Under the pieces are notes generated by a model. It saw only the letters and a list, made by a program, of their open reading frames with translations, did no database searches and was not told the DNA's origin. From a virus, in the IMG/VR virus record IMGVR_UViG_3300028840_008184, positions 1 to 64,000 of that record: DNA of 64,000 nucleotides; one strand, written 5' to 3'. The position numbers were made by a program, and so were the translations under genes. Positions 19,358 through 47,413 of the stretch are shown in pieces (position 1 is the first letter of the stretch; the number at the start of each line of letters is the position of its first letter).

Positions 19358-22300
19358 TTAATCCCACAGTTTAAGAACTTGAGTGGAAAGATCTTCCGAC
19401 ACTACGCCTTCACCAAGGTCGTCGCTCGTCACGCCAACCTGAAGTGCTGGGGCAGCAGTCTTAACTGGAGATGGCTTCGTTGCGCGGCCAAGGGCACGCT
19501 TAAACGATTCAAAGCTCTCAGCATCGATCTTCATGAGATCGTCTACCTGCTTGTCAAGAGCAGCCTTCCCATCAGGAAGAAGGCCCTTCTCTTGCATCTC
19601 AAGAGCAACAGCAAAGGCTCTCTTCATGCGAACCTTCTGCTCCTCAAGATCCGAAGCTGTTTTCTTCTGGGCATATTCCTTGGTCAGTTCGGCGCCGAAA
19701 GTCTTGCTCTCGGAATCTCCCTCACCAAAATAATCCTTCCAGTATTTAGCAGCGGCAGGATCTACTGCAAAAGCCTTAAGCTTCTCTTCATCGCTTAGGT
19801 CTCCCAGATTTAGAGCACCCTCTTTAAGCAATCCACCAAGGTGTTCCATGGCTTCGCGGACCTTTGGAAGATTCTGAACTGCCTTCATAATCTCCTCATG
19901 CATCTCCACGAGGCCCTCCACAGTGGCTTCTGGGGTCTTAGTATCAAGCTGACCAAGACCAAAGCTCTTACCAAGCGGCATGTCTGTATCTACCGTGGTC
20001 TGTGGATCCAACTTGAGCTGATACTTGGCTCCAACCTCGGCTGCGATCTTCTCACGCCACGCGCGGCGGTCTTCAGCGGTGACTTCAAGATCATCAGCTT
20101 CGGCTTCATCAAGCATCTGAATAAGCTCGTCATCGAGCATATTTACATCATCAGCAAGCTGCTCATCATCGGCCATACCTTCAAGCTCTCCCTCAAGCAG
20201 AGCCTCTGGTTCTTCGTCTTCCATAACCTCGACTCCTGCCATCTCTGGGCCACCATGCTCCTCTTCCTTCATTTCCTCTTCCATGAATTCTTCGGTAAGA
20301 CCCTTCTCTTCTAGAACCTTCTCTACAATCGCCTTGATGGCTTCCTCGTCTGCGGCCATGCACTCACCACTACCCTCTTCCCCTTCCTGAGCTTGACGGA
20401 CCATTTCACGACGACGCTCGGCGCGAGCCTCTAGAAGCTTCTCAACGATAAGCTCAGCCTTGCTCTTTTTCTTATCCTCTTTCTCTTCCTTCTTTTCTTT
20501 CTTTTCCTTCTTTTTCTCTATGGCTTCCTCAAGAGCAGGAGGCAGTTTGCCCTTTTTGCCCTTCTTCTTTTTCTTTGGCTTCTCTTCCTTTTCTTCCTTC
20601 TCTTCCTTCTCTTCCTTCTCTTCCTTCTCTTCCTTTTCTCCATTCTCTTCCTCTTCTTCCTTCTCTTCCCCCTTAGCTGCATCAACTATCAACGAGGCCT
20701 CTTTACGAAGCTCAACGTTTTCGTCAACAGCATCCTTGGAAAGTCTAAGAAGCTCGGCTACAACAATATCTTCCTCGCCCTTTCCAGCCTTCTTGCGGCT
20801 TTCAAGCGATTCGGCAAGCATAGCGAGTTCATCTGCACTCTCATCGAGAGCGGCGTAGGTGGACTGAATTTTATCGGTCACTTCAGCAGTAGCCAGCATT
20901 TCTGGGTCATCGGCAGCGTCGTCTGCATCGTCGGCGTCATCTGCATCGTCAGCCTCAGTTGGAGATGGAAGCTCGGCCTCACCCTTTCCGGTAGTTTCCT
21001 CAAGGGCATCCTTGAGATCGCCAAGGGCCTTCTCAGCCTCTTCCAGATTTTCAGTAAGGGTCTCAACAGCCTGATCCACTGGATCTTTTGCAGGCTCTTT
21101 TTCCTCTACTTCTTCTGGGCCAGGTTCACCACCGAGATCCATTGGGGGCATCTCTGGGGCACCAGCGGCAGGTGGGGGTGCTGGAGGTGCTGGAGGTGCA
21201 GGTGGTTGGGCGGTCTTAGTAAGACCGTCGCCCTTAAGAACGTAAGCCACCTTTGCAAGACCATCCTTACGAATAGCCTTAAGAACCTCGCGACCATAGC
21301 GTTTGCTGGTAAAAATATCCCACTGGTCATCAAGCTGATCTTCCCAAACCTCTCCACCAGTAGCCTCAAGAACCTTGTCGGGACCAGCATAAACTTCCCA
21401 ACGAGACTTCTCCTTGTTCACAGAGGTCTTCGCATCGTCATTGAAAGCCATGACGAACTTGGCGCGAAGCTTCTGGTCAGCGCGGAGGTGCTTCTTCTTC
21501 TCAGCAAGCTCAGCTGCGCCGCCACCAAGATTCTCTGGATTCTCGTCCAGATACATACCAACCATCTGCTTGTCTTCTTTCTTTTTGACATTATCATTGG
21601 TTGGATCGACCGGATAGGTCTGTGGCTCATTGACGCCACCGCCGCCCTGGTGATAGGCCCTCTTCTCACCGAAGACCTCTTCCATTGAATAGGCATTCTG
21701 CTCTGGATCATCAACGGCATCGTCGGCTGCACCGGAAGCGACTTCCTTATAGACGGTTTTTCCATCGGCGCCTTGCATAGGAACCAACTTCTTTCCATCG
21801 GTGGTGGTAATCATACCCTCGCCGCTAGAAAGAAAAGCGTGCCTCTTCAGCCTGCGCTCCTCAAGCTCTGCCCTAGACAGTTGCTTCTTAAGTCCAAGTT
21901 CCTTAGAACCACCACCAAGGTTCTCTGGATTTTCATCGAGATACATCCCGACCATTTGCTTATCTTCTTTCGCTTTCACTTGATCGTTCAATGGGTCCAC
22001 TGGGTAGGTCTGTGGTTCATTTGCTCCACCACCTCCCTGATGATAAGCGGACTTCTTGAACTCTGCACGACGGGCCTCAGCCCTTTCACGAAGCTCTTTT
22101 TCAGACATAGTATGCTCCTCCTTTTTTATCTGGACGCCACTGGCTAAGTCTCGAAGTGCATTTTCCAAAGCGTCCACTTTGTTATATATATTAGTTACTT
22201 CACTTGCGAATCGAACATCAAATCCCGTTGGGTCGTTATAGTTGTCGGGGCCGGATTTAAGATCCTGTATGTATCCATGGCCGCCCCTACCGCTGGTCAT

Positions 22301-23470
22301 CGCTTTATTCCCAGCAAGACCATACGGTGGATGTATTACTTCCACGTCTGCCGCCTGGGCTACTGGAGGCGTTGGGGGCGCCTCTGGTGCTGCTTCTTCT
22401 GGTGGCCCCTCAGCAGATGCTAATTCAACAATCTTATTCATTAGCATCTCTCTAACCTGAGGAGGCAGATCCGGATTATCCTTGAGGATGTTGCTCCAGT
22501 TACGTGCCTCTTCATCAGCTCCAGCAGCTTCCTTGACTAAGCCCTGTGATAAATTGGCGACAGTCTCGCGAAGGTCTTTAACATCCTTGGCCAAACTATC
22601 AAGTTCGCCAGGAGTAACACAACCAGCAGCCCTAAGCTCATTAATTCTATCTTCCTTTTCCTCAGAATATTTATTGAGGCTGGCTATTACGCTTCTTAGT
22701 TGTGCGCCTGGATCTGCGCCGGTCACCACGAGGCTAAGCTCAATTGGAGAAAGATCAACGTTAATTTCTCCATATGTTTGCTTACCCTTAACACAAGGAC
22801 AATAATCGGCTTCTACCTTTGCGACATTGCCGCACTCAAAACAGATAGACTTTCCAACAGCCGTTCCCATAGAGACGTTATTGGCATATCCCGTAGAAAC
22901 CTTTCTGGCCAAGTCCGGATAGTTAATCTTATCCAAAGCACATAGGGCGATGACGCGTTTGCGGGTTTCATCATAGTGAGTGTCAATTATGATGCCCCTA
23001 ATTCCATCGACAGAGCTGCTTTGGTGATCTTTGCAGAGGGGCCTTCCAATCCATTTCCTATAGGCTAATTTAAGTTCTGACTCTGGGAAAATATCGCCAT
23101 TGTTGTTTTTGTATGGCTTGATGCTTGAATCACTACATTTCCATTTCCAAGAGCCGTTCTTTTTGTTGACGACCCACTCACAAGTAACTGGATCATCACC
23201 AACTTTTTTGATTTCTCCATTTGCATCTAACAAAGCGGCTTCTGCCGCATGCATCATTACGCAACTGAAATACAAAAAATCTTTAGCCTTTGGTGCTACG
23301 CGCTTCAAATGATTAGCATATTTCAAGAAGCGCTTTCTGATTTGTGCGTCCGCCTCTGCAACTTTGGGACTAAGCAATAGTTCTTTTACGTCAGGATTAG
23401 ACAACGCCGAACAGGGAGAGTGAATCTCATCAGTGCTGAATTGTGCTTCAGCATATTTAATTATGGACAT
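19358..23470 (-). CDS. Prohead protease fused to scaffold-like protein
   Basis: 1370 residues. I start at MSIIKYAEAQFS (GGAG 7 nt upstream). The 36 residues before it in the longer frame are a Lys/Arg-rich shadow of an overlapping small gene. Residues about 140-300 fit phage maturation proteases: LCKDHQ with candidate catalytic His about 149, NNVSMG with Ser about 200, an embedded C..C/C.C zinc site (CFECG, YCPC) and a closing PIELSLVVTGADPGA. The rest is scaffold-like: a 43-residue module (YHQGGGG.NEPQTYPVDP) occurs twice (about 473-518, 604-650). Pro/Ala-rich and Asp/Ala-rich linkers, a Glu/Lys EEK array (about 943-963) and a helical C-terminus follow. Many K-x-A motifs suggest self-processing. 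Confidence 0.8.
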   Translation of the reverse strand: MSIIKYAEAQFSTDEIHSPCSALSNPDVKELLLSPKVAEADAQIRKRFLKYANHLKRVAPKAKDFLYFSCVMMHAAEAALLDANGEIKKVGDDPVTCEWVVNKKNGSWKWKCSDSSIKPYKNNNGDIFPESELKLAYRKWIGRPLCKDHQSSSVDGIRGIIIDTHYDETRKRVIALCALDKINYPDLARKVSTGYANNVSMGTAVGKSICFECGNVAKVEADYCPCVKGKQTYGEINVDLSPIELSLVVTGADPGAQLRSVIASLNKYSEEKEDRINELRAAGCVTPGELDSLAKDVKDLRETVANLSQGLVKEAAGADEEARNWSNILKDNPDLPPQVREMLMNKIVELASAEGPPEEAAPEAPPTPPVAQAADVEVIHPPYGLAGNKAMTSGRGGHGYIQDLKSGPDNYNDPTGFDVRFASEVTNIYNKVDALENALRDLASGVQIKKEEHTMSEKELRERAEARRAEFKKSAYHQGGGGANEPQTYPVDPLNDQVKAKEDKQMVGMYLDENPENLGGGSKELGLKKQLSRAELEERRLKRHAFLSSGEGMITTTDGKKLVPMQGADGKTVYKEVASGAADDAVDDPEQNAYSMEEVFGEKRAYHQGGGGVNEPQTYPVDPTNDNVKKKEDKQMVGMYLDENPENLGGGAAELAEKKKHLRADQKLRAKFVMAFNDDAKTSVNKEKSRWEVYAGPDKVLEATGGEVWEDQLDDQWDIFTSKRYGREVLKAIRKDGLAKVAYVLKGDGLTKTAQPPAPPAPPAPPPAAGAPEMPPMDLGGEPGPEEVEEKEPAKDPVDQAVETLTENLEEAEKALGDLKDALEETTGKGEAELPSPTEADDADDADDADDAADDPEMLATAEVTDKIQSTYAALDESADELAMLAESLESRKKAGKGEEDIVVAELLRLSKDAVDENVELRKEASLIVDAAKGEEKEEEEENGEKEEKEEKEEKEEKEEKEEKPKKKKKGKKGKLPPALEEAIEKKKEKKEKKEEKEDKKKSKAELIVEKLLEARAERRREMVRQAQEGEEGSGECMAADEEAIKAIVEKVLEEKGLTEEFMEEEMKEEEHGGPEMAGVEVMEDEEPEALLEGELEGMADDEQLADDVNMLDDELIQMLDEAEADDLEVTAEDRRAWREKIAAEVGAKYQLKLDPQTTVDTDMPLGKSFGLGQLDTKTPEATVEGLVEMHEEIMKAVQNLPKVREAMEHLGGLLKEGALNLGDLSDEEKLKAFAVDPAAAKYWKDYFGEGDSESKTFGAELTKEYAQKKTASDLEEQKVRMKRAFAVALEMQEKGLLPDGKAALDKQVDDLMKIDAESFESFKRALGRATKPSPVKTAAPALQVGVTSDDLGEGVVSEDLSTQVLKLWD
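20580..20640. repeat. 9-bp repeat encoding (EEK)n
   Basis: Tandem CTTCTCTTC units encode Glu-Glu-Lys repeats in the scaffold part of the protease fusion. The charged region probably forms a single helix or a flexible spacer. Confidence 0.8.
21530..22050. repeat. Duplicated 43-residue module in scaffold region
   Basis: Two direct copies of about 130 bp (about 21530-21657 and 21915-22050) encode YHQGGGG(A/V)NEPQTYPVDP, ending MVGMYLDENPENLGGG. Each copy is preceded by a basic motif (FKKSAYHQ or EKRAYHQ). The copies differ mostly at third positions, so the duplication is old and protein-selected. Confidence 0.85.
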
Positions 23471-23612
23471 TGCGTTCTCCGCCGTTTGGATTTTCTTTCT
23501 CTTTCTCTGTTTTCTCATCGTCAAGGCCAGCTTGTTTTCTAATTTCCTTTTCTGCTTCTTCTTTGTCGTCATAGACATTATCGATTTTGGTTGTGGATCT
23601 TTTGATAATCAT
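23457..23612 (-). CDS. Small protein overlapping protease start
   Basis: 51 residues: MIIKRSTTKIDNVYDDKEEA followed by a charged helix and ending NPNGGERNVHN. The ribosome site GGAG is 9 nt upstream. It overlaps the protease start by 14 nt, in a different frame. Its existence explains why the N-terminal extension of the protease frame is Lys/Arg nonsense. Function unknown; translational coupling to the protease is likely. Confidence 0.7.
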   Translation of the reverse strand: MIIKRSTTKIDNVYDDKEEAEKEIRKQAGLDDEKTEKEKENPNGGERNVHN

Positions 23613-23615
23613 AGC

Positions 23616-24260
23616 TTAACGCTCCATCATTTTAATCAAACGGGCACGCCTAATAATATGCCCACGGATTTCACTAGCGTTTTTTCTTCCCAAAATGTTC
23701 TTACGAAAGTGAGTTTTCATTTGTTTGTCTATAATATTTTCGATACTCCTAATTATCTTGTCAGCCCTGTCCGAGGTGGCCATGATCTTGTTCACCTGTT
23801 CTGGATCTCCAAAGTCTTCGAAAGCCTCGATGAACTCCTCCAGAAACTCAGTAAGCTGTTGCATGCCATCCTGAAGAGCTGACTTAATTTGTCTTGTAGC
23901 AGTATCTTTTTCTAAAGGTTTAAGGATATGAATATATCCTGTATTTTGTTGAGGGGTTTCGGTCAAATCTTTTTCTTCTTCTTTTTGACCAGCGAAATCA
24001 ATAATCAGTTTTGTATATCTATCTTTAACTTCTCTTTGAAATCTTCGAAGCAAATGTCTTATGCCGTATAGGTCTTCAGTGGAGGCACCCTGATTTTTCT
24101 TCAGCACATTAATGAGCCTATTGTCATGCTGTCTCGCAGCCCAAAGGTCTTTCAGGAATTTATCAAACATACGAATAGCCTCTTTGGCCGTCTGCTTTTC
24201 GGCATCAGAAATCTCGTATGAACGAAGTAAAGGTTGTTGAGCTTGCTTGTCAATACCCAT
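23616..24260 (-). CDS. Helical hypothetical protein of head operon
   Basis: 214 residues, nearly all helical (KQTAKEAIRMFDKFLKDLWA; TRQIKSALQDGMQQLTEFLE; then a basic C-terminus, RGHIIRRARLIKMMER). It is the first gene after the promoter motif at 24310-24318 and precedes the protease/scaffold, so it is probably a head-assembly or portal-associated protein. It lacks the hairpin tag. No family recognised. Confidence 0.6.
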   Translation of the reverse strand: MGIDKQAQQPLLRSYEISDAEKQTAKEAIRMFDKFLKDLWAARQHDNRLINVLKKNQGASTEDLYGIRHLLRRFQREVKDRYTKLIIDFAGQKEEEKDLTETPQQNTGYIHILKPLEKDTATRQIKSALQDGMQQLTEFLEEFIEAFEDFGDPEQVNKIMATSDRADKIIRSIENIIDKQMKTHFRKNILGRKNASEIRGHIIRRARLIKMMER

Positions 24261-24346: not shown

Positions 24347-24607
24347 CTACTGTGTGCTAATGTATTGGGAGGAAAATCCTTCCCAGGCAAACCCTTGATT
24401 CATGTCTTGAACAGTGCTGTCTCTTAAACCTACGATATTTTTAGCAAGTTCCGCGACCTCTTTATTATACTCTGGATCGTTGGTTTCGTTCTCCATGATG
24501 AAGCTGTGCAGAATATCCGTAACAACAGATGCGGCGCGTATGAATTTTTTGCGGCTTAGCTCATCAATTAGGTTAGACAGATCGCCTATGACCTCGTTTT
24601 TTATCAT
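24347..24607 (-). CDS. Hypothetical protein with degenerate hairpin tag
   Basis: 86 residues. LSNLIDELSRKKFIRAASVV followed by TDIL resembles a degenerate form of the helical-hairpin tag (L..L.D.L...G...AA..VTD.L). It overlaps the stop of the metallopeptidase/phosphatase gene by 4 nt, with AGGAGG upstream. Perhaps a free tag-like adaptor; no enzymatic motif. Confidence 0.55.
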   Translation of the reverse strand: MIKNEVIGDLSNLIDELSRKKFIRAASVVTDILHSFIMENETNDPEYNKEVAELAKNIVGLRDSTVQDMNQGFAWEGFSSQYISTQ

Positions 24608-26106
24608 TTTATGCCGCCTCCTGGTGCAAACGGTATAGACATGATTCCAGTTGGAACCGTGCTAGTTATGTAGGTTGTGTATCCAACACTGGCGGGCTCC
24701 GGGAAAGGAACGTCGTTTCTTGCGGGTGTTGGGAGGGAACATTCTTGCTCTTGCTCTTCTAACTCTGGATTTTCATAAGGTTCTTTATCACCCAATGATT
24801 CTCTAATCTTATCTGTATCAACTGGCTTTTCGCCGCAAGGCTCAGAGAACCAATCGATGAGATCGACAAACATATCTTTAAATCCATAAGCTTTTGCTTC
24901 GGCGTATGCTGCCTTACATGGCCATCCGTTCTCGGTTCTAAATCTGGCTATGACGCCGCCCGTTCTATCTTGGCCAAAATAGCAATGAACATAACAGGGT
25001 TTTTGAACTAAAAGCTTTGTGACGCAGTTTCCAAGAATATTTCTGCCGTATTCTTCTGGGCGTCCGCTCTCTAGAAATGCTGGGACATGCTCTAAGCCTA
25101 CATCGTTGCACATTCGAGCGATGTCTGGATTCGCATGCAACGAGATCACCCTTTCTACTCCAAGTGATTTCATAGCTTCCAATTGTGCGTGGTCATCAAT
25201 CATTCCGCCCCTATACACCATCCCAGGAACGACCACTGCAAAATTCCTGGGAAGCGACCTAGGGTTTGGTCTCAAATCTCCAATTTTATTCAAGGTTTCT
25301 ACATCGAGCTTTCCTGTGGGTTGCAAGCCACTCTTTGCCTGCCAGCTAGCCAGCCCAACCACAAAATCAGCATCTAGTTGGGCAGTCTTACAAATATCTG
25401 TAATTATTCCAAACAAATCCATAACTGTCTTGCTGTGGGAAACTTTTTGATTAAATTCTACAGCATCCTCTATATCAAACGCTGCAAGTCTCGGCTCACC
25501 TTTTAACAAAAGTGCGACACCTGTTTTGACCATCTGGTATTGATTCTTGTTAGCCGTGTGAGCTACAAATTCCAGATCCGGCTCGCCTATTGGGCTGTCG
25601 GGCAAATATTTCTGCCTGATGTCTTCAAGCTGCGAAGCAGCTTCTACGAGAGACGCCATAGCTCTTGGACGCATTCTGAGTCTTTGCATGAATTGTCTCG
25701 CCTCTGTCTCCGCCTCTGGCTCTCCTAGGAATGGAGATGTGACAGGGCGCGGTGCGCCCCTTCCAAGATGGCCCATCTCATGAACGATGGTTTCCATCAA
25801 GCCGTCGAGAACAGCGTTTTCAAGCTCGCCTGAAGTTACAGTCTGCTTTGTTGCTTGGCCAGAATTGCGCATTGTGATCTCTCTAATCCTATCCTTGAAG
25901 ATGTGGATCTCGCGCGGGTTTTTATTGGGGCCACTTTCCACATGACCCAATTGCCCAGAGCCACCTCCAGAGTGAACCTTGATTCTTATGTCTGGAGGCA
26001 GAAGACCTGGGCTGATTTGGTCAATCATATTCACTGCCTTATCAACAGCGGGATCCCAAGGCTCAATGACTATCCTGGCTGCTCGTTTGCTAAATGAAAA
26101 GCTCAC
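24604..26106 (-). CDS. Metallopeptidase / dual-specificity phosphatase fusion
   Basis: 500 residues, from a GTG with AAGGAG 6 nt upstream (MSFSFSKRAARIVIEP). Three parts are visible. Residues about 20-160: a zinc-metallopeptidase-like domain with METIVHEMGHLGRG (HExxH about 107-111) and acidic EPEAETEA downstream as possible third ligand. Residues about 252-272: a short peptidoglycan-binding-like motif (ASWQAKSGLQPTGKLDVETL). Residues about 295-430: a cysteine phosphatase domain (VYRGGMIDD at its start; HCYFGQDRTG, the HCx5R loop, about 373-382). The proline-rich tail ends in PFAPGGGIK. K-x-A sites are FSKRAAR and ICKTAQL, the second between the two enzymes. Substrates unknown; packaging into the virion is inferred. 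Confidence 0.8.
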   Translation of the reverse strand: MSFSFSKRAARIVIEPWDPAVDKAVNMIDQISPGLLPPDIRIKVHSGGGSGQLGHVESGPNKNPREIHIFKDRIREITMRNSGQATKQTVTSGELENAVLDGLMETIVHEMGHLGRGAPRPVTSPFLGEPEAETEARQFMQRLRMRPRAMASLVEAASQLEDIRQKYLPDSPIGEPDLEFVAHTANKNQYQMVKTGVALLLKGEPRLAAFDIEDAVEFNQKVSHSKTVMDLFGIITDICKTAQLDADFVVGLASWQAKSGLQPTGKLDVETLNKIGDLRPNPRSLPRNFAVVVPGMVYRGGMIDDHAQLEAMKSLGVERVISLHANPDIARMCNDVGLEHVPAFLESGRPEEYGRNILGNCVTKLLVQKPCYVHCYFGQDRTGGVIARFRTENGWPCKAAYAEAKAYGFKDMFVDLIDWFSEPCGEKPVDTDKIRESLGDKEPYENPELEEQEQECSLPTPARNDVPFPEPASVGYTTYITSTVPTGIMSIPFAPGGGIK

Positions 26107-26116
26107 TTCAATCTCC

Positions 26117-26443
26117 TTATACGGTTCCAAGTATTTTGCCCAACTCGATTATCACCTGACCAACGAACCCTGGGTCAAGGCCCATTAGCAAGTTTTTGGT
26201 AATTCCAATAGCCTGACCAATAGCCGATGATGGCGGCAACCTTTTAGCACCCAGATCAACAGAAGATATTCTAAGCACTTTGCCTCTTAGCCTGCGCAAA
26301 AAGCGCCCGCGAAGTCTTACTGGAACACGGTGAAACATAAACTGAATAATCTTAAAGATAGACGCAGCCGCTTGGTCGGGTCTTGTGCCCGGCTGCTGAG
26401 CTTCCTTGCAAATGTCTCTTATGGAAAGTTTAATATCGGTCAT
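26117..26443 (-). CDS. Hypothetical basic protein
   Basis: 108 residues with a strongly basic centre (FHRVPVRLRGRFLRRLRGKV) and a hydrophobic, Gly-containing C-terminus (IGITKNLLMGLDPGFVGQVI). The start lies directly after the previous gene's stop. The ribosome site is poor, so coupling is likely. The basic centre suggests nucleic-acid or membrane binding. No family recognised. Confidence 0.5.
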   Translation of the reverse strand: MTDIKLSIRDICKEAQQPGTRPDQAAASIFKIIQFMFHRVPVRLRGRFLRRLRGKVLRISSVDLGAKRLPPSSAIGQAIGITKNLLMGLDPGFVGQVIIELGKILGTV

Positions 26444-28795: not shown

Positions 28796-29113
28796 TTATT
28801 TATTATACTTTCTGGAACCAAACATTTTATTAGTCAAAGAAGCATTTACGGCCTTATGGAAATCAAACTCAGGAAGCCATATTGCTTTAATGTTTCCTCC
28901 AGATGAATCACAGTTTATGTAAATTTCTCCAACATCGGGCACGTCAAGGGTCAACATATCACTATCAATATCCACATCTACAACCGTTCCTCTAAAGAAA
29001 CCGGTGTTATTCAGTGAGAACTGGTCAAAGTTAATGGATTCAATGTCTACACCCATCCACACACATATTTCTCTACCTAAAAATTTATCTCTAATGAAAG
29101 TAGCCATACCCAT
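28796..29113 (-). CDS. Hypothetical beta-rich protein
   Basis: 105 residues, from MGMATFIRDKFL (GAGGG 7 nt upstream). The centre alternates strands (GTVVDVDIDSDMLTLDVPDV) like an OB or SH3-type barrel. It sits between the giant multidomain gene and the tagged head gene. No family recognised. Confidence 0.55.
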   Translation of the reverse strand: MGMATFIRDKFLGREICVWMGVDIESINFDQFSLNNTGFFRGTVVDVDIDSDMLTLDVPDVGEIYINCDSSGGNIKAIWLPEFDFHKAVNASLTNKMFGSRKYNK

Positions 29114-29162
29114 GATTATGCCCTCATAAGTCTTCAATTTCTATGATCATTTATTATAAGAT

Positions 29163-32100
29163 TTATGCCGCCAAAAGTCTCTGCAATTTTCCCTTTAAGT
29201 TCAAATACCTGGGGACATTTTCTCTAAACTCATACACCAAGGCCCATCTTCTTCCTGCTGCGCTTGGGTGTTTGTCTTTTTTGGCTTCTTCGTATCTGGA
29301 CTTCAGCCTTTCAATCTCTTCTTCTATAGACTCAATCATGCCAGAAATCTCTTCTTTTTTTAAGAACCTTATCCTTTCATCTGGATCTGGAACATTCAAA
29401 AGATTTTTCCATCTTTTCACAACATTAGGTTCTCTTTGCTCGGGTCTTATATAGAGCGGATCCCAACGAAGTGGGCGCTCCCTATCTAAAATCTTCCCGG
29501 CAGTTTTCTGATCTATTTTGCCCAAAAACTTAATGTCTTTTTTATACTTGTTCCAGATCTCCTCCGAGAATAATATCTCATGGACACCCTCTAATTTATG
29601 CAAGCCGCCGGCTTCTTTAATCATTTTCATAGGAACTTTATATGTATAGACATTTCCAAAAATGCCGTGGCGTGGGCCAACTGTTCTCCAATTGGAAGTC
29701 ATAAATAAGCCTACACTAATGGGCTCTTCTGTTTGCCTTGATCTTACCCAAGAGTGCTGACCAAGTTCAGCGTATTCTGGGTCTATCTTTTCCCAAAGCT
29801 CAGGATCAGGCAACCATCGTGTCTTGGGTCTGGGAATAGGTGGTCTTGGCCCTACGTGATACAATATTTTGTATTCTCCTTCCCTACGCACAGCCTCTTT
29901 CACAAACTCCCCTTTAGCAAATAGAAAGTCGTCCGCCATGTCCTCGCTTTCACCTATCTTGCTCCAATCCGCATCTGGCGGCATTAACCTATGTTTTTTG
30001 TATAGGTCTAGTTTGACTTCTTTATATCTTTCCATATCCCCTTCTTGTAATGCCCTGTGCTTTTCAAGTATTTGTCTATGCCTCTCTTCAACCGGGGCAT
30101 CTAAGATGCGCTTGAGACCTTTAAGCTGATATTCCACATGCTCTTTGGGTCTTACTTTAAGATCTATAGAAATCCCTTCAGATGTCTCATATGTGTGCTC
30201 AACATAAGCGCCCTCTTTCACATTGGAAAATGGTATGCCCGCCTCTGTTAGCATCTTGCTGGTTCTCTCAACATCGTCGGTTCCAACTTGAAAGTCTATG
30301 TCCGATACGCCGGGGATGTTAATTCCAGCCGCCGTTGAACTAACACAAACAGGATCAATCCCAAGTTCCTTGAGTCTCTCTTGCTCTCTTTTCATTATCC
30401 TGAACATCTTGCGGCGTTCTCTGGCGCTCTTTAGCAAGACTTCATATTCTTCTTTGGTGTATTTTGCCGCTTTCTTGAATAGTTCTTTTTTCCTGTCCTC
30501 ATCTATTCTTGCGGCATCCATCTGCTTGTCTGTGGCCACCACCGCCTTGATGGTCTTTTTCTTCTGCATCACGGCTTTGGCTAGTCGATGGTAGCCGTCA
30601 ATAACCTCGCCCTTATATACCAAGATCGGATATTTCAAATCCGCGTCCTTTATTCTTTTAGTATCATCCTTATATTTCTTAGGATTCTCAAGCACCTCTT
30701 CTGGACTATGGGCACCCTTCCCTGGACCAACCTCATCACCCCATACTTTTTCTTTCATGTTCCATTCAAGAGTGCTAATGGGGACATTCTCCGCTTTGTT
30801 GTCCGCAGTGATTTCTATTAACATATCCACGGAATATGCTCTATCACTATCCGTGTAAGTCTGCCCAGCCTTCTTCTCAAGATCATCTTCCTTGGCTTCC
30901 ATGATCATCCACTTGTTTCCATCAGTCTTGAAGACCTTGTAGGCGCCCTTTTCCTTTTTGCCCTTCAACTTAAAGACAATTTTGCTGCCGCTCCAGGAGA
31001 TTTCATTATAGGTTCCAGAGTCATAAACTTCCACTTTTCCAGCACCATATTCGCCCTTGGGAATCTCTCCCTTGAACTTCATGTATGAAATTGGGTGATC
31101 TTCCGTCTTCATGGCCAACAGCTTTTCTTTGCCTTTGGGAAGCTTGTGTTTTGGGATTGCCCATGAAGACATAGCACCCTGATCGTTTTCAAGTCTCAAA
31201 TCGAAGTGTTCCCCAGCCCTCTCAGCCTTGTGGCGTTGAATTACAAACCTGTGCTTATTCTTTCCTTCTTCTTTGCCCTCTGGTTCTGGGGTCTCTTCAA
31301 ACTCTCTTTTTTTTTTGTAAGTTGAAAGCGGGTCTTTCGCTGCCAATCTCAATTGGGCTTTCTTTCTACCCTTCATTTTGAAAAGTTCCATATCCAGAAT
31401 ATCCTCTATATTATATGGATATTCCTTCATAGTTCTTTCAATCTGCTTAGAGAACCTGGCCCAGAATTCTGGATTGTCTTTTTGAAGCACAACAAGCTCA
31501 TGGAACTTATCCCAGAAATCAGCACCTATCTTATTATTCTCAAGCTCGTTTATCGCCTTGATTGGCATCCAGTCATACTTCCCAGGCATTACCAAAGCTC
31601 TCACAAGCATATATTTGCCCGGAGTAAACTGATTGGTCTTGGTGGTTAATGAGATTCCATTGTAGTCGTGTTCTTTCATGCCGCTAATGTCATCTTCCTT
31701 ACCAGCCACCATTTTCTCAGCTTGCCATTTTGGTACAGCCTCAAGGCCGCCAATTTGTCTTGGTTCCAATCCTTCCAGATCGGTTTCGTCTAAGTTCCAG
31801 ATGTCCAATACTCTAAGCAACCTTGGCGTAGTTCCTTTTCTCCTCTGGCGTATTTCTTTACCCTGTAGGTTAAACCTGGCACCAAGCGGAATGGCATCCT
31901 TGCGAGGAAGCTTCAGTCCATCTTCAACTTTCGTTATGAAATATGTGCCTGGGCCATCAGAGGATATACCATCTCTCTTCATGGATACAAGCCACTCATC
32001 TAAACCAAACCTTTCATATGGGTTCTCAACGGACAACATTTTATCCACCCAACGCTGAAGTAGAGGTATAGAAACTTCTTGTTTTTTGAATTTCTCATTG

Positions 32101-35100
32101 ATCTTCTTCTTCCTCTCTTCAAGTTTGTTCTGCATTTCCGACGAGCCCGTGCCCTTATTTTTCTTGACCTCTGCCTCAAGCATAGCCCTGGCCATCCAAC
32201 CAACATAATGTAGTGGATCGTCAAAGGCATAGTCCTTTGTGGCACTCAAAAGAAATAGTTTTCTCAGAAGAGCAGCTCGTCTCTTTGCGGATGGCGCTTT
32301 AACCTCCCCTTCCTCTATTTTCTCTTGTAGGAAACTCAGCTCGTCATAATAGTCATAGTATTGTCGAACGGCACAGCTTTGGCCTATTGGAGCCACTTCG
32401 TTAAAAGCAACCATCAAATCTGCATGAGGATTTTGCTCTCTATGCTCTTGCGGAATCTCTTCCCTTCTCAGCTCTTTTTCAACCGTTCCCCACATATCTC
32501 TTGTGTGAGGTCCCCACAAAAAACCAGCAGCCGGAACCTTTTGTTCCTTTCTGGCTCGGCCAATGGTAAATCTTACACCATCATGCGGACAGATAAAGGG
32601 AACCTCGTCCAGCCATGCTGGCGGAGTTCTTCCCTCTCCCTCGGGAGATGGCACAGCCTCTTCTTCTCTGGCTTCCTGTTCTGTTATTTCTTCTTCCATT
32701 GGGGGCACAAGTCCGTAATATCTTTTAAGCTTTGCTTTGATTTCCTGGCCTCTGCCTGTTTTCCAAATGTGGTGGTTCCAATCAATAGAATTCAAGGGAA
32801 CCCTACCACCTGGACAAGTTGGATTTGGGCACCAAGTATGAGACCAAGGCACTGCGGCTTGGGCTGAATATATTCCCATCTTTCTTTCTATATCTTTTTT
32901 CTCCTGCGCCAATCCACTTATTTTTTCATTAAGGTTTGTGAGCAATCTGTTCAGATCTCGTATCTTGCGCTCACCACTTTCTTTATCTTTAGGATCTGTA
33001 TATGTGTCCTTGGCCTTGGAAAAGAATCTCAAAAGCTTGTTGGCTTTCTCTTGTTCTCTTTGCATAGTAGTTAATTTGCTATCCAAGCGAGGCAGTTCTA
33101 CGTTCCTCAGGCCTTCTACTCTTCCGGCGCAGTCTGGACACGCCCAGGTGCGTTTTTTTGTCTTTTGCATCTTGGGTGGAAGGGAGTTTTTCTCAAGGGT
33201 TTTACATATAGAGCACACTGGATTTTTTGATACTGTGTAGCCCTTATCCTTGGCCACTTCCTTGACCATCTGTCTGTCCAGGATTTTATAAATCCATTTA
33301 TCCATGTTTATTGGTTCTACATTAGCCCTGTCCTCAGAGAAATATTCATTGGCCAAATCTGTGGTTTTCTCTATAATCTTCTGGATATAAGGTTTGGCCT
33401 CAGGCTGCTCTTCGAAATCAAGTTCTTGATTTCTTAGTTTTCTGGCCCTCTTCGTATCTATATCATCAAACATGCCAAATGGCGCGTCAGGGAAAGTTCC
33501 AAATTGCTTGTTCAACCTGCCAGAATTTCTTATAAACCACATGCGACCTATAGATCTAACTATGTAAGGCAGAATCCAGCTCTGTAGGAGATGAGGCTCC
33601 TTCTTCAATATTTCCCAAGCTTTTGGATCATTAAGCAATTTTCTAAACTTAGGCCCTTCTTCCATTTTGTCTGGTGTAAAAAAGTCAAGCGCCTCCGAGG
33701 ACATAGGGGGCGGATCTGGTTCTTTCCAAGTAGCCGTGCCCTTTTCGTCCACAGGAACCTCAAGTTTGGGGGCAAAGTATGGCTTTGCCTCCGCAAGATG
33801 CCTTGCCTCTTCTTCTAGAGCTTCCATGCTATATTCTTCTACTACGTCCTCTTCTTCTTCCTTTTTGGCTTCTTTCTCCTCCTCGGACATCAGTTTTGAA
33901 ATTTCTTCCCAGCGCTCTTCGAACTTTTCAGGATTGGCAAGCTCAACAAGCTCGCCGGCCATCTTTCCAGGGACAGCGGCGTATAGCTCAAAGCCGTTCA
34001 TCATTCTATTATATCCCTTCTCCGCTTCTATGTCGGCTGCTTCTATATCATCCATATCAATGAAGGATTTGTTTAAATACTCCGTTAAAGCTTCTGGATC
34101 AAGCGTCATTATTCTCTTCACTTCCTCATTGGCCTTACGAGCAAGGTATTCGTCTATTAGTTTTTTGATGGTGTGCTTTTGTTTTTCTGTAATCTCTCTG
34201 ACTGCAGGAGGAACAACCTCTTTCTCCCTTTCAGCTTTTCTTTCTCGTCCAAGCAAATATGCAACCTCTTCTGGAGTCAAATCTTCTAGTTCTGTAAATT
34301 CTTCCTCTTCTTCCAGCTCCTCTTCTTCCTCTTCAGGAATGGCAACTTCTTCCAGCTCTTCTTCCTCAAAAGCAACCTCTTCTGGCTCTGGCTCTGGCTC
34401 TGGCTCTGGCTCAGGTTCTGGCTTGGGAGCTTCTTCTACAACCGGAGGCTTTTCCTTAATCTCTTCTGGAACGGGAGCTGGAATTGGCTCCTCGCTTACA
34501 TCCTCCCATTCGTCATCCTCCTCTTCCTCGGAGATTTCCTCAAGAAACTCCTCTTCCTCTTTCGGAAGCTCTTCAGGGAGCGCCTCTTCCTCTTCAAGTT
34601 TGGCCAACTCCTCTTCCTTTTCTTTTAGAAACTCCTGGTATGGTTGCTTCATGCCCTCAAGCAAACCCTGTTCTTCTTTTTCTTTTCTCCACTTCAGAAA
34701 CTCATCAAGTTCTTCTTTACCTGGCGCCTCTCTTTTTGGCTTGGGCTCTACCCCTTCTTCCTCAAGTTCTTCGTATGTTCCACCATAGGGCTTCATCTTT
34801 TCGCCAAACATCTCAACGGCTTTTTCGCTTGGAAGTGGTCTTGGCTCAGTTGGCTCCACGAAGCCCTCTTCTTCCCTTTCGCGTCTTTGTTCCTCTTTAA
34901 GCCTCTCGATTTCAGCTTCGTCAAGCCCAGCTGCGAATTTTTCTATTCTATCTAAAACCTCACTAGCTTTTAGCCATGCTTCATATTTTTGTTTGGCTGG
35001 CCCCAAAGTCTCTGCGCCATTAAGGAAATTGGCGAACACCCAGGCAAAATTCTCTGAGTCGTCTGGGCCAATAGCCGTGAACAACAAACCATCTTTTTCA

Positions 35101-38100
35101 ATAGGGAGCCCCGTCCAAATACCCTTGGAACGGCGGACACTGCCCATAATCTCTGGCCAACCAGTAACTTCTCTTCCTTTCATAACGCCTGCCTCGGCAG
35201 CAAGAAGTGGGGCGTGGCAAATCATAGCGACGGGTTTCTTCTGACGCACGAATTTCCTAAGGAGTTTCTGTGCTTTCTTATCCTTGGAATATTTAACCAT
35301 GCCCATGCCGCCAACTACAAAGAGGGCATCATAATCTCCAACATCAACACTAGCAACCTTTTTGCTTATATCTACGGCTGTGCCCCTATCTCCAGTGGCT
35401 TTCAGCCCAGATGAAGCAGTATCAACATCAAACTTAAACTTCTCTACAAATAGATTGAGCGGAGTGGTATATTCAATCTCACAAAAATCTTCTGGAGAAA
35501 GTATCATTAAAATCTTTTTGGCTTTGGCCTCTTTTATTATTTCTCTTCTAGATAAAGCCATTTTATCATCCGCATCAAAATAAGTGCCGATTTCGCCAAA
35601 ATCCACTCCCTTGGTTGGGAAGAAAGGAATTGCTCCCGTGTCTAAGCCACCGGGCTCTTTATCAAGATTTTCTGGGAGCATGGTGTATTTCTTTCCATAT
35701 GATTGTGGGAACTGATCCGAATCATCCTGCTTTCCGCCCATTGGCCCTTTCACTTTGCCTTGGGTCTCTCCAATGGAACCGGGAACACGGATGCTGCCTT
35801 TATTATGGAGCGTAGAAATATCACTCCTCATGCCGTCGCCTTTTACGACGCCAGTCTTCACATCTGGCCAATCCTCATTAAGCTCGTTCAGAAGCGTTTT
35901 AAGCTCTGCTCTGAGCTTATCGATTCCAACCTCTTTGTCGAGCTTGAACTCTACGTGTAGCCCCGTTCCGCCACTCTGGAAGATGGTTGGCGTGGAACCA
36001 TACTTGGCCTTCAGCTTTTTGGCGAGCGCCCTGGCATACTTCTTGGCTTGGTCTAATGAATATTTGCCGTGAATATCCAAATCAACAAAGCCCAGGTTTG
36101 TCTTTGTTCCGAATACCTGGTGGAACGAAAGAATGCGCCTTTTGACCCAGTAGAAATAGTTGTTTGGGTTCTCGGAGTTTCCAGGGTCATCGTTGGTTAT
36201 TTTGATTTCTTTTCCATCATGATTTCTCTTGAGTATTTTCTGGTTCTTGCCTATGCCAATATACACCAATACCGGCTTGTCTTTGATGCGAGACATGATT
36301 TTCTTACGGATTTCCGGCTTTTCATAATGGCTTTTAATCTGACCACGAGTAAGCTTGGTTCCTTCTTTGTCAATTAGCACCTCAGACATTTTCTCCTGAT
36401 CTTCATCGCCATCGTCATCCGCCATCTGAACGCCTTCATAAACATCAAATCTAATAACCATATAACGCTTATTAGTACCGAATCTTCTTTCAAGCGCCTT
36501 GGCTATACGCTTGCCAAAAGCCTTTTCTATGCGCTTGCTGCTCATCCTCTCTTTGGCAGTAATAAGCAGATCACAAACATGCGCTCCGCCATAAGTGCGA
36601 CACTTCACCACTTCTTCGACACTCACGGGAACGTCACTTGTGCGAATAGTCATCCTGCGCTTCCCGTTTTTAATCGCATCTACATATTGAGCAGGGAAAT
36701 AAAGAGCACCTGGCTCGGCATAAATGGCAGCGTGTTTAGACAAAGTTAGGCTCGCCTCTCTTCTTTCTTCACCGCTCCACTTTCCAGGGGCAAACTTATC
36801 CTTTAAAGTTTCCCAATTTTCCAATACAAAATTAGCTATTTCTCTGCTAAGATAATAACCAAACTCCTCATCTGTGATTTCTTTACCATATATTTGACTA
36901 TACTCTTTGCGAGCCTGCTCTTTGAGAGCCGGGTTCATCTCAAACTCTTTTTCGGTCTTATGATATAGTTCGCCAATCACTTCTCGCTGAATAGGATTAA
37001 TGACAATTTCCATCGTGTCTTCTTCCACAAACTCGTCTTCATCCTGCGCTCTTTTACTAAGTATCGAAAGCTCGCCTACCAGTCGTCTGGATGGAAATCC
37101 ACCCATACCACGACCACCTGGAACACCCCTTAGCAACTCGCTTGCTATAGGAGCCAGGTCGGGTTGGGTTTGCATCAGCTTGGTAAGAACTTTCTTAAAC
37201 CTGGAAGAATATAGATAATGTAGGTGTCCTGGTCCAAAAGGTTTTCTGCCATACAGGAATCTCTGCACACGACCAGGGCCGCTTCCATTGGATATGATGA
37301 TTAACTGGTAGATATTGTAGGCGTTGGGCGCAGTAGTATCATAGCCAGACTTTTGCACATATCTGGTTGTAGCTCTAATCTTGTTCATAAAATCTTGTCT
37401 TGAAGTGTTTTCTATTAGATTGCCTACAGCCTTATCTTTTCTTATGTTTTTGGAGTTAAACTTACGCTTAAACTTGGCGAAGGAACTTGGGTTATTCTTC
37501 ATCACGATGAGCCCTGCAAGCTTACTGCGTGCTACATTTTCCGTAATGTAAGTTGTGAATATTTTTTGCACCTCTCTTCTAACGGCAGGTGAGTCCGCGC
37601 CCAATTGCCTAAGAATCTCTGGCTTAAGTGTCTTGCCGACATACCTTCCATCCTTTTCCAACACAACCATGTTTGGGCTGTATCTTATGAAAGTTCCTTC
37701 TCTGCGCCTTACTCTGGATCTTGGGTTCTTTTCTAAGAAGGCTTTGATAATTCTTGGATTAATGTCTTGATAATCCCAAATATTTTGCTTGCGAACCGCC
37801 TTCAAAGCCCTCTTCCAATCACTAGACATTTTCTTAAATTCGCTAGGAGAAATGCCAGTTGCGCTTTGAGCATTGGGCATTCTAGAAAGCATCCCCATAA
37901 AATACGGACCATGAACCTGAGTTGGGCCAAAGGAAGTTCCAGAGTCTCCAATAACATGCGTTCTTCCACCCGATTCCAACTGAGCCATGATTCTAAACAT
38001 TTTTTCGCCATCGACACCGCCTATCGTCCCAAGCCTGCCCGGAGCATGCGTGATGCCCAGCATCTTTTCAAGCCTTCGTATAATAGTATCTACATAAGAG

Positions 38101-39587
38101 GCAGTCTTAACAAGCATAGCTCTTTTGGATAGATGCTCTTTAAGCAATTCAATATCTCCCTGATCCTTTGGCCTGTTCATTTTCTCCTTCCACTCTAATA
38201 CATGTTCGGGCGCCCAATGTTTGAATCCAAGATGTTCTCTGGTAGTGACACCCTCGCTCATAAAATCTTTGTCTCCCACCATCCAAGGCCCAGTAAATAT
38301 TTCTATTTCTCCCACATCAGTTTGGAAAGACGCCCTGGGATTTCCTGGTCTTATTTCATCAACGACCGCATCGGGATGCTGCTCAATTTTCTTAAACTCA
38401 TCTGGGTCCGCATGGACATCTAAATCATTAATGCTTTTTACACCCAAGGCCCCAAGAACGCCGCTTCCACCAATAGTGATTTTGTTGATGTCTACTCCAA
38501 CCTCATCGAGTATTTCCTTGAGGTTTCTAATGAACGCCTCGTGCTTTTCTTTTTCTGGATCTCTGGGCAAATCATCGGCGTCACTCTTTTTAGCTTCCTT
38601 GAACTTATCTATGTTTTTAGAATGAAACTCATGCATGGTTGCGTCCTTAGGGCTTTTGTCTTCCCTGAATCTCACAAACTTTTGGTGCCTAAGACCGCCA
38701 GGCTGTCGCTCTTGGAAACCTATCTCAATTACAAAAGGCCCTTTCTTGAGCTTACTTTTAATCTTCCCCTCGTCTTCTTTGGAGAAGTTGCTAATCTCGC
38801 TCATATGATAGAGCTTCCCTTTATAATATTGCCCATAGAGAGCCTTTAGCTTATCTTTTTCGCTCATCTCGTAATCAAATACGACATAATCATCACTTTC
38901 GCTTTTACCAGCACCACCTTTATATTTATACATAATCTTAGGTGGCTTGGGCTCAGTTTCACCCTTGCTCTTATATTCATATGGTTTATCTTTCAGCTTT
39001 AGCACAATACCTTCTCCGCCAGTGTTGACGGCTGTGTTCATGGCTTTCTGCCAATCTCCAAAGCTATAATTCTTAGTAAGTTTTACCTTATCACTCTCTT
39101 TCACAAGACTTTGTAGTGCCTTGCGGCGCTCTCCAAAGCCCTTGTCTGCTACTTTGTTGCCCTTGCTCCAAAGCACATCGTAGAGATGTATCTTCACGGA
39201 ACCCGGAAGTTCCTTGGCCTTTTCAGCAGATTTTTCTGGCGAACTACCAGCTAAAGAAGTGACCTTGCCTACGTCTTGTTTATTTTTATCCCAATATACC
39301 AACTCACCTTCAACGTGCGTTCCTTCAGGAAGAAAGCTAAGCGCCTCAACAAGCTCGGGGAAGTTTTCGGTTTTCTCATCACCTCTGCGGCTATAAAGAC
39401 GAACCTTTCCACCAGTTTTGATGATCTGAACTTTCCAGCCATCCAACTTCTCTTCTACCACAATATTTTCACGATTGAAATCCTTTAGGAGTTCATCCAC
39501 ATCTTTAATCTCAGTGAGACGCATTAAGGACACTGGCCCAAGGCCATCTGGAGACGCTCGTAGAGATAAGGCAAGCTTGGTAGTCAT
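29163..39587 (-). CDS. Giant polyprotein with dispersed LigD modules
   Basis: 3474 residues in one uninterrupted frame (GGAG 9 nt before the ATG). Approximate modules: 1-345 ATP-dependent DNA ligase (EEKLDGWK motif I about 45-52; EGELVYWD; GGEGIVLK; OB domain). 350-490 nucleotidyltransferase (GGSG, then DLDVHAD). 497-840 lysozyme/transglycosylase-like (LESGGRTHVIGDSGTSFGP). 955-1055 ASCH-like. 1070-1330 LigD-type polymerase/primase (DLDIHG about 1166; SGGTGLHVEF about 1205). 1354-1545 DJ-1/PfpI (AMICHAP). 1555-1940 acidic. 1940-2740 unknown with zinc ribbons. 2748-2900 LigD-type 3'-phosphoesterase (RFVIQRHKAERAGEHFDLRL, TEDHP). 2905-3035 ParB-like. 3045-3220 second nucleotidyltransferase. 3228-3474 possible ADP-ribosyltransferase-like. 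K-x-A motifs lie at most junctions. Role inferred: packaged DNA-repair and host-entry enzymes. Confidence 0.85.
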   Translation of the reverse strand: MTTKLALSLRASPDGLGPVSLMRLTEIKDVDELLKDFNRENIVVEEKLDGWKVQIIKTGGKVRLYSRRGDEKTENFPELVEALSFLPEGTHVEGELVYWDKNKQDVGKVTSLAGSSPEKSAEKAKELPGSVKIHLYDVLWSKGNKVADKGFGERRKALQSLVKESDKVKLTKNYSFGDWQKAMNTAVNTGGEGIVLKLKDKPYEYKSKGETEPKPPKIMYKYKGGAGKSESDDYVVFDYEMSEKDKLKALYGQYYKGKLYHMSEISNFSKEDEGKIKSKLKKGPFVIEIGFQERQPGGLRHQKFVRFREDKSPKDATMHEFHSKNIDKFKEAKKSDADDLPRDPEKEKHEAFIRNLKEILDEVGVDINKITIGGSGVLGALGVKSINDLDVHADPDEFKKIEQHPDAVVDEIRPGNPRASFQTDVGEIEIFTGPWMVGDKDFMSEGVTTREHLGFKHWAPEHVLEWKEKMNRPKDQGDIELLKEHLSKRAMLVKTASYVDTIIRRLEKMLGITHAPGRLGTIGGVDGEKMFRIMAQLESGGRTHVIGDSGTSFGPTQVHGPYFMGMLSRMPNAQSATGISPSEFKKMSSDWKRALKAVRKQNIWDYQDINPRIIKAFLEKNPRSRVRRREGTFIRYSPNMVVLEKDGRYVGKTLKPEILRQLGADSPAVRREVQKIFTTYITENVARSKLAGLIVMKNNPSSFAKFKRKFNSKNIRKDKAVGNLIENTSRQDFMNKIRATTRYVQKSGYDTTAPNAYNIYQLIIISNGSGPGRVQRFLYGRKPFGPGHLHYLYSSRFKKVLTKLMQTQPDLAPIASELLRGVPGGRGMGGFPSRRLVGELSILSKRAQDEDEFVEEDTMEIVINPIQREVIGELYHKTEKEFEMNPALKEQARKEYSQIYGKEITDEEFGYYLSREIANFVLENWETLKDKFAPGKWSGEERREASLTLSKHAAIYAEPGALYFPAQYVDAIKNGKRRMTIRTSDVPVSVEEVVKCRTYGGAHVCDLLITAKERMSSKRIEKAFGKRIAKALERRFGTNKRYMVIRFDVYEGVQMADDDGDEDQEKMSEVLIDKEGTKLTRGQIKSHYEKPEIRKKIMSRIKDKPVLVYIGIGKNQKILKRNHDGKEIKITNDDPGNSENPNNYFYWVKRRILSFHQVFGTKTNLGFVDLDIHGKYSLDQAKKYARALAKKLKAKYGSTPTIFQSGGTGLHVEFKLDKEVGIDKLRAELKTLLNELNEDWPDVKTGVVKGDGMRSDISTLHNKGSIRVPGSIGETQGKVKGPMGGKQDDSDQFPQSYGKKYTMLPENLDKEPGGLDTGAIPFFPTKGVDFGEIGTYFDADDKMALSRREIIKEAKAKKILMILSPEDFCEIEYTTPLNLFVEKFKFDVDTASSGLKATGDRGTAVDISKKVASVDVGDYDALFVVGGMGMVKYSKDKKAQKLLRKFVRQKKPVAMICHAPLLAAEAGVMKGREVTGWPEIMGSVRRSKGIWTGLPIEKDGLLFTAIGPDDSENFAWVFANFLNGAETLGPAKQKYEAWLKASEVLDRIEKFAAGLDEAEIERLKEEQRREREEEGFVEPTEPRPLPSEKAVEMFGEKMKPYGGTYEELEEEGVEPKPKREAPGKEELDEFLKWRKEKEEQGLLEGMKQPYQEFLKEKEEELAKLEEEEALPEELPKEEEEFLEEISEEEEDDEWEDVSEEPIPAPVPEEIKEKPPVVEEAPKPEPEPEPEPEPEPEEVAFEEEELEEVAIPEEEEEELEEEEEFTELEDLTPEEVAYLLGRERKAEREKEVVPPAVREITEKQKHTIKKLIDEYLARKANEEVKRIMTLDPEALTEYLNKSFIDMDDIEAADIEAEKGYNRMMNGFELYAAVPGKMAGELVELANPEKFEERWEEISKLMSEEEKEAKKEEEEDVVEEYSMEALEEEARHLAEAKPYFAPKLEVPVDEKGTATWKEPDPPPMSSEALDFFTPDKMEEGPKFRKLLNDPKAWEILKKEPHLLQSWILPYIVRSIGRMWFIRNSGRLNKQFGTFPDAPFGMFDDIDTKRARKLRNQELDFEEQPEAKPYIQKIIEKTTDLANEYFSEDRANVEPINMDKWIYKILDRQMVKEVAKDKGYTVSKNPVCSICKTLEKNSLPPKMQKTKKRTWACPDCAGRVEGLRNVELPRLDSKLTTMQREQEKANKLLRFFSKAKDTYTDPKDKESGERKIRDLNRLLTNLNEKISGLAQEKKDIERKMGIYSAQAAVPWSHTWCPNPTCPGGRVPLNSIDWNHHIWKTGRGQEIKAKLKRYYGLVPPMEEEITEQEAREEEAVPSPEGEGRTPPAWLDEVPFICPHDGVRFTIGRARKEQKVPAAGFLWGPHTRDMWGTVEKELRREEIPQEHREQNPHADLMVAFNEVAPIGQSCAVRQYYDYYDELSFLQEKIEEGEVKAPSAKRRAALLRKLFLLSATKDYAFDDPLHYVGWMARAMLEAEVKKNKGTGSSEMQNKLEERKKKINEKFKKQEVSIPLLQRWVDKMLSVENPYERFGLDEWLVSMKRDGISSDGPGTYFITKVEDGLKLPRKDAIPLGARFNLQGKEIRQRRKGTTPRLLRVLDIWNLDETDLEGLEPRQIGGLEAVPKWQAEKMVAGKEDDISGMKEHDYNGISLTTKTNQFTPGKYMLVRALVMPGKYDWMPIKAINELENNKIGADFWDKFHELVVLQKDNPEFWARFSKQIERTMKEYPYNIEDILDMELFKMKGRKKAQLRLAAKDPLSTYKKKREFEETPEPEGKEEGKNKHRFVIQRHKAERAGEHFDLRLENDQGAMSSWAIPKHKLPKGKEKLLAMKTEDHPISYMKFKGEIPKGEYGAGKVEVYDSGTYNEISWSGSKIVFKLKGKKEKGAYKVFKTDGNKWMIMEAKEDDLEKKAGQTYTDSDRAYSVDMLIEITADNKAENVPISTLEWNMKEKVWGDEVGPGKGAHSPEEVLENPKKYKDDTKRIKDADLKYPILVYKGEVIDGYHRLAKAVMQKKKTIKAVVATDKQMDAARIDEDRKKELFKKAAKYTKEEYEVLLKSARERRKMFRIMKREQERLKELGIDPVCVSSTAAGINIPGVSDIDFQVGTDDVERTSKMLTEAGIPFSNVKEGAYVEHTYETSEGISIDLKVRPKEHVEYQLKGLKRILDAPVEERHRQILEKHRALQEGDMERYKEVKLDLYKKHRLMPPDADWSKIGESEDMADDFLFAKGEFVKEAVRREGEYKILYHVGPRPPIPRPKTRWLPDPELWEKIDPEYAELGQHSWVRSRQTEEPISVGLFMTSNWRTVGPRHGIFGNVYTYKVPMKMIKEAGGLHKLEGVHEILFSEEIWNKYKKDIKFLGKIDQKTAGKILDRERPLRWDPLYIRPEQREPNVVKRWKNLLNVPDPDERIRFLKKEEISGMIESIEEEIERLKSRYEEAKKDKHPSAAGRRWALVYEFRENVPRYLNLKGKLQRLLAA
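34381..34422. repeat. 6-bp repeat encoding (EP)n
   Basis: TCTGGC units encode a Pro-Glu run (EPEPEPEPEP) within the acidic linker of the giant polyprotein. Such runs form stiff extended spacers. Confidence 0.85.
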
Positions 39588-47398: not shown

Positions 47399-47413
47399 TT
47401 TCAGCACTCTCCA

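Follow-up and report, generated by a model that had tools for sequence, protein, structure and literature searches.

Can a metallopeptidase and a tyrosine-type phosphatase, joined in one chain and encoded among the head genes of a large uncultured phage, be cargo that the virion carries into its host, and does such a chain stay in one piece? The question is raised by one gene of the window, by which we mean the whole stretch of 64,000 nucleotides analysed here (positions 1 to 64,000 of IMG/VR record IMGVR_UViG_3300028840_008184). A sequence-only reading had placed this gene at 24604-26106 and proposed that its product is a precursor of two virion-delivered effectors. The coordinates are correct: inspection of the sequence places a GTG at 26106 shortly after AAGGAG, and the product has 500 residues. 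The motifs on which that reading relied are all present, HEMGH at residues 109-113 (it had given about 107), HCYFGQDRTG at 374-383 (373-382) and ICKTAQ at 238-243; the chain does hold two unrelated catalytic modules, and the gene does lie within a head-gene cluster (Table 1). HExxH and HCx5R occur together in only this gene of the 116,048-base virus record, and with the catalytic residues invariant as well, the co-occurrence of peptidase and phosphatase exceeds chance. An AlphaFold2 model of the whole chain has a mean pLDDT of 74.

Table 1. Positions in the window of the peptidase-phosphatase gene, its parts and its conserved neighbours.
Feature	Position	Strand	Basis or remark
Head maturation protease domain, N-terminal part of a 1406-aa chain	19358..23578	-	phrog_18299, E 1.9e-12
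H214, helical gene, conserved downstream neighbour of the phosphatase	23616..24260	-	Synteny
Phosphatase-peptidase gene, whole	24604..26106	-	500 aa, GTG start, SD AAGGAG upstream
Disordered C-terminal tail, residues 445-500, last letters GIMSIPFAPGGGIK	24607..24774	-	pLDDT <50
PTP/DSP-type phosphatase domain, about residues 286-444	24775..25251	-	PF03162 and PF13350 above cut-off; Foldseek
Peptidoglycan-binding-1-like helical stretch, residues 216-275	25282..25461	-	Weak PF01471 in 5/5
Zincin-like metallopeptidase domain, about residues 10-149	25660..26079	-	Invariant residues, predicted topology
Leader VSFSFSKRA, residues 1-9, KxA motif at its end	26080..26106	-	KxA before zincin in 7/7; pLDDT <50
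N108, 108 aa, leader ICKEA|Q	26117..26443	-	Fused ahead of the same protein in L006 and L007
G113, upstream marker of the syntenic block	28796..29137	-	Conserved

The phosphatase half is, by profile and by model, a PTP/DSP-fold cysteine phosphatase with predicted activity. It exceeds the Pfam cut-offs for Y_phosphatase2 (PF03162; 29.0 bits, cut-off 27) and Y_phosphatase3 (PF13350; 23.3 bits, cut-off 22.2), and a five-relative profile picks out TpbA and Siw14 among solved structures. A Foldseek search with the whole-chain model returned AtPFA-DSP1, TpbA, Siw14 and other DSPs, with E values from 2.6e-5 (best) to 2e-4, and among viral proteins the model best matches one from an uncultured Caudovirales phage that carries the name SIW14-like phosphatase. 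The predicted fold fits the PFA-DSP/Siw14/TpbA phosphatases. Every lineage phosphatase that was examined keeps the Cys and Arg of HCx5R, as do five outgroup ones, and HCxxGxDR is unbroken in every phosphatase member of the set of relatives. Cys375 would be the nucleophile and Arg381 the phosphate-binding residue, with Asp380, inside the P-loop, the probable general acid. A match to the Pfam family named "Swiss Army Knife" (PTP-SAK) was considered as a sign of injected megaproteins and set aside, being below the Pfam cut-off; the name is probably an allusion to RNA-repair proteins.

The P-loop resembles that of the MptpB-type atypical lipid phosphatases (HCXXGKDR) in keeping its Asp, but the window protein (HCYFGQDRTG) has Gln where the Lys stands. 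In that group the Lys is important for substrate binding, and the count of basic P-loop residues is critical for activity on poly-phosphoinositides (PMC3091653). Relatives that lack the zincin mostly retain the Lys (HCxxGKDRTG) and so are like the MptpB type at this position, whereas members of the zincin-bearing clade mostly have Gln or Ala, a replacement that suggests a changed substrate in that clade. Lipid phosphatase activity cannot be claimed for the window protein, and since the Lys of HCXXGKDR is lost, the proposal that the enzyme acts on signalling nucleotides or the like finds no particular signalling substrate in its favour.

The peptidase half probably adopts a zincin fold, on the evidence of its conserved residues and of its model. 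H109, E110, H113 and E129 are invariant in seven zincin sequences, E129, downstream on the next helix, being probably the third ligand. The model of this half (pLDDT 73) has a helix, three strands, the HExxH helix and then the helix that carries E129, and the same order of helix and strand elements has been described for the zincins of polyvalent proteins (PMC5512222). The topology anticipated for this half was recovered in the prediction; a match to a solved fold was not, and the fold is likely rather than shown because the first-ranked entry of the PDB, the matrix metalloproteinase MMP10, has an E value of 0.21, which is not significant. No Pfam family exceeds its cut-off on the zincin half (DUF4344, "putative metallopeptidase", E 0.05).

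Relatives were gathered by five scans of IMG/VR. Whole-chain relatives are present in L005, L006, L008, L012, L018 and L045, several of the close ones sharing with the window protein a GI.SIP-like C-terminal ending. Phosphatases that stand alone, about 250-400 aa long, are present in L021, L022, L033, L034-L036, L038, L040, L042 and L043. L007 lacks the zincin and has N108 fused ahead of the phosphatase part; L014 keeps the zincin and lacks the phosphatase, about 800 residues of other modules being inserted right after an SKTA motif. Across many independent contigs, and for most of the relatives, profile searches recovered a shared order of genes, G113 - N108 - phosphatase - H214 - head protease, with N108 or G113 undetected in a few, and the head protease in nearly all syntenic loci whose flank extends to its position; the standalone phosphatase of L033 lies outside the syntenic block, and its flanks hold no head protease. 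A small gene between the phosphatase and H214 (24347-24607, minus strand) has an ending like NIVGLRGD...PFF that is common to relatives. In the phosphatase tree all zincin-bearing members together with L007 form one group (support 100/99), and in the deep group the phosphatase stands alone. Given that grouping, the history of these sequences would be simplest if the zincin was gained once and lost once, in L007; on the same comparisons the phosphatase is a long-standing member of the lineage's head gene cluster.

The phage records contained no match to the protein, to a standalone phosphatase relative or to H214, and that collection therefore includes no cultured phage with a relative of it. 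Among bacterial genomes no relative of the peptidase-phosphatase protein turned up, an MCP search of bacterial genomes gave one distant contig with no hint of a host, and a defence-system library gave no match. For the phages of L008 (301 kb) and L021 (139 kb), matches to the MCP gene fall into four separate segments that extend over several kilobases (L025-L030), as if the gene were interrupted by introns or inserts.

A short motif recurs among the head genes. Hydrophobic-x-K-x-A (hxKxA) occurs 81 times in the head block (8-59 kb; 8000-58900) against 31.9 expected, and a strict KxA form occurs 43 times against 9.5, a count reached in 0 of 200 shuffles; in the rest of the contig the strict form is not in excess (8 against 7.1). 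The motif falls within the first 50 residues in 14 of 31 head-block genes and in 8 of 63 genes elsewhere (p 0.0013), and it lies near the N-termini of MCP (IVKYA|S, conserved in two relatives), of the portal and of the cargo. Pooled zincin-less relatives show the same excess (162 against 69.7), and phage G is enriched too, with the motif at the N-termini of the portal and other head proteins. There is no enrichment in Rctr197k, nor in L033. The text of the paper on the phage G capsid (PMC5646251) contains no cleavage site data. Because the motif is enriched only in the head block, and also in relatives without the zincin, we assign it to the conserved head maturation protease, of which it is probably the cleavage site. 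Past its protease domain, the 1406-aa chain continues in a long acidic and lysine-rich region with many KxA motifs, and it probably combines protease with scaffold. In the deep group, most of the standalone phosphatases have no KxA leader; if packaged, they would need another signal.

Other chains of the head block also combine domains. A 3474-aa chain (29163-39587, minus strand) has ATP-dependent DNA ligase, LigD 3'-phosphoesterase and DJ-1/PfpI domains and a weak LigD prim-pol-like one, with KxA motifs between domains; modules of the LigD of bacterial NHEJ are thus distributed along what is probably a polyprotein. A cupin domain occurs in an 874-aa protein (44783-47407, minus strand) adjoining the terminase, and a protein with a poly(A)-polymerase head domain is encoded at 50632-51411 (minus strand). 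Some genes of the block may not be virion genes.

We suggest, giving it about an even chance, that the protein is a two-enzyme head cargo that is trimmed of its leader, stays one chain and is injected to act on host targets. Its core would be the old phosphatase of the head-gene block, in front of which one clade would have added two domains, the zincin-like metallopeptidase and a small helical one that resembles peptidoglycan-binding domains. As the head is assembled, its maturation protease would remove the short leader after FSKRA; the trimmed protein would most likely remain a single chain, be packaged and be ejected along with the DNA. Once inside the cell, the phosphatase would dephosphorylate a host target, most likely phosphoproteins or, as the next candidate, a small metabolite or nucleotide that bears phosphate, and the peptidase would perhaps cut a host protein. 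We favour injected cargo acting on phosphorylated host targets because the protein has diverged while the capsid has stayed nearly constant: MCP is 95% identical to that of the L005 phage and 89% to that of the L006 phage, against 49% and 37% for this protein.

The sequence-only reading went further, to a separation of the two halves, for which ICKTA|Q or an equivalent site in the linker would be cut and two virion effectors would act apart. ICKTAQ matches the motif, hxKxA stands at the same place in L018 (IEKIAG) and L014 (FIKTAN) and elsewhere in the linker in L008 and L045, and the modules have been lost independently in L007 and L014. However, the motif is missing from that place in 5 of 8 sequences, L005, L006 and L012 have no hxKxA anywhere in the linker, and the sites that exist (4 of 7 proteins, in differing places) are within chance, with 1.9 expected and 48 of 500 shuffles as high; ICKTAQ was rejected as a conserved cut between the halves. 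The site also lies in a loop between two confidently predicted helices of the peptidoglycan-binding-like domain (helices at 232-239, 246-258 and 269-276 in the AlphaFold2 model), a fold that a cut there would break. The peptidoglycan-binding-like fragment, noted earlier at 252-272, is present at 250-275, although as a partial PF01471 (PG_binding_1) match below the curated cut-off (E 0.0095; 16.5 against 23 bits); all five relatives match that family weakly (best E 0.0026). In contrast to the linker sites, hxKxA directly precedes the zincin in all 7 proteins that have both domains (FSKRA|A in the window). Conservation thus gives good support to removal of the leader and none to separation of the halves. 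Of the earlier proposal, the two modules, a nearby KxA motif and plausible packaging stand, ICKTAQ as separator does not, and we regard a split precursor as unlikely.

It has been put forward for the zincins of polyvalent proteins that they process polyproteins (PMC5512222), and with the 3474-aa and other multi-domain chains bearing KxA sites in the window, the zincin here might serve the phage's own polyproteins and the phosphatase be incidental. Relatives whose locus has no zincin are nevertheless just as enriched in KxA, nearly all syntenic loci that reach far enough hold the head protease, and L033, non-syntenic and with no protease in its flanks, shows no enrichment; the zincin is disfavoured as the KxA protease, and this role is very improbable. 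A role at the cell wall during entry, shared by the zincin and the peptidoglycan-binding-like domain with the phosphatase as a separate passenger, draws on the position of the PF01471-like stretch between the two enzymes in two-domain relatives, but PF01471 is matched only in part and under its cut-off, L007 has lost the zincin yet keeps this domain beside the phosphatase, and the gene is among head rather than tail genes; we consider it equally doubtful. Finally, the phosphatase has long been syntenic with the head block, where it adjoins the protease, and it could act in head assembly within the producing cell, dephosphorylating a virion protein, and never be injected. We give this very little credence, because a search that was not exhaustive revealed no phosphorylated head protein or phage kinase, and the fast divergence described above fits a host-facing role better.

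Cargo of this general kind has precedents. The polyvalent proteins of phages and conjugative elements (Iyer et al. 2017, PMC5512222) likewise join a zincin-like metallopeptidase to unrelated enzymatic domains and are packaged or transferred, as we infer for the window protein; unlike them, the window chain is short and carries a recurrent KxA motif at its leader, and the word phosphatase is absent from the text of that paper. Internal head proteins can lose an N-terminal propeptide, cut at a short motif, as the head is assembled, and enzymes occur among them (PMC10052503). The window protein is like the substrates of SPN3US gp245 and the T4 internal proteins in having an N-terminal leader with a short motif, at which we infer cleavage; the SPN3US motif is A-X-E, whereas K-x-A is deduced from enrichment only. 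The protein resembles the PFA-DSP/Siw14 and TpbA phosphatases (PF03162) in predicted fold and HCx5R loop, and differs from them in identity (about 20%), in its zincin fusion and in its P-loop, HCxxGxDRTGG. Among isolates, Bacillus phage G has the closest MCP (52% identical), and its head cluster has a related protease and KxA motifs, but no phosphatase or zincin of this kind was found in phage records, phage G included.

Packaged multi-enzyme head proteins are thus known, and the zincin-phosphatase architecture, of which no cultured carrier was found in phage records, is new. More tentatively, at somewhat less than an even chance, the PTP-fold phosphatase may be a core virion-delivered part of an uncultured lineage related to phage G by its capsid, and K-x-A head-protease sites may be the borders of cassettes that hold interchangeable injected enzymes. 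The modules concerned would be the zincin, topoisomerase IB, 2H phosphoesterase and LigD-like ones; in L008 (6384-9437) and L014 (6606-11351) one chain carries topoisomerase IB and 2H phosphoesterase ahead of the zincin, its parts separated by LSKRA motifs. The KxA motif offers a simple rule for predicting processed head cargo in a large group of uncultured phages. If the protein is packaged, a phage-delivered phosphatase of tyrosine or dual-specificity type would be present at the moment of entry, and the erasure of host phospho-signalling before phage genes are expressed would become testable.
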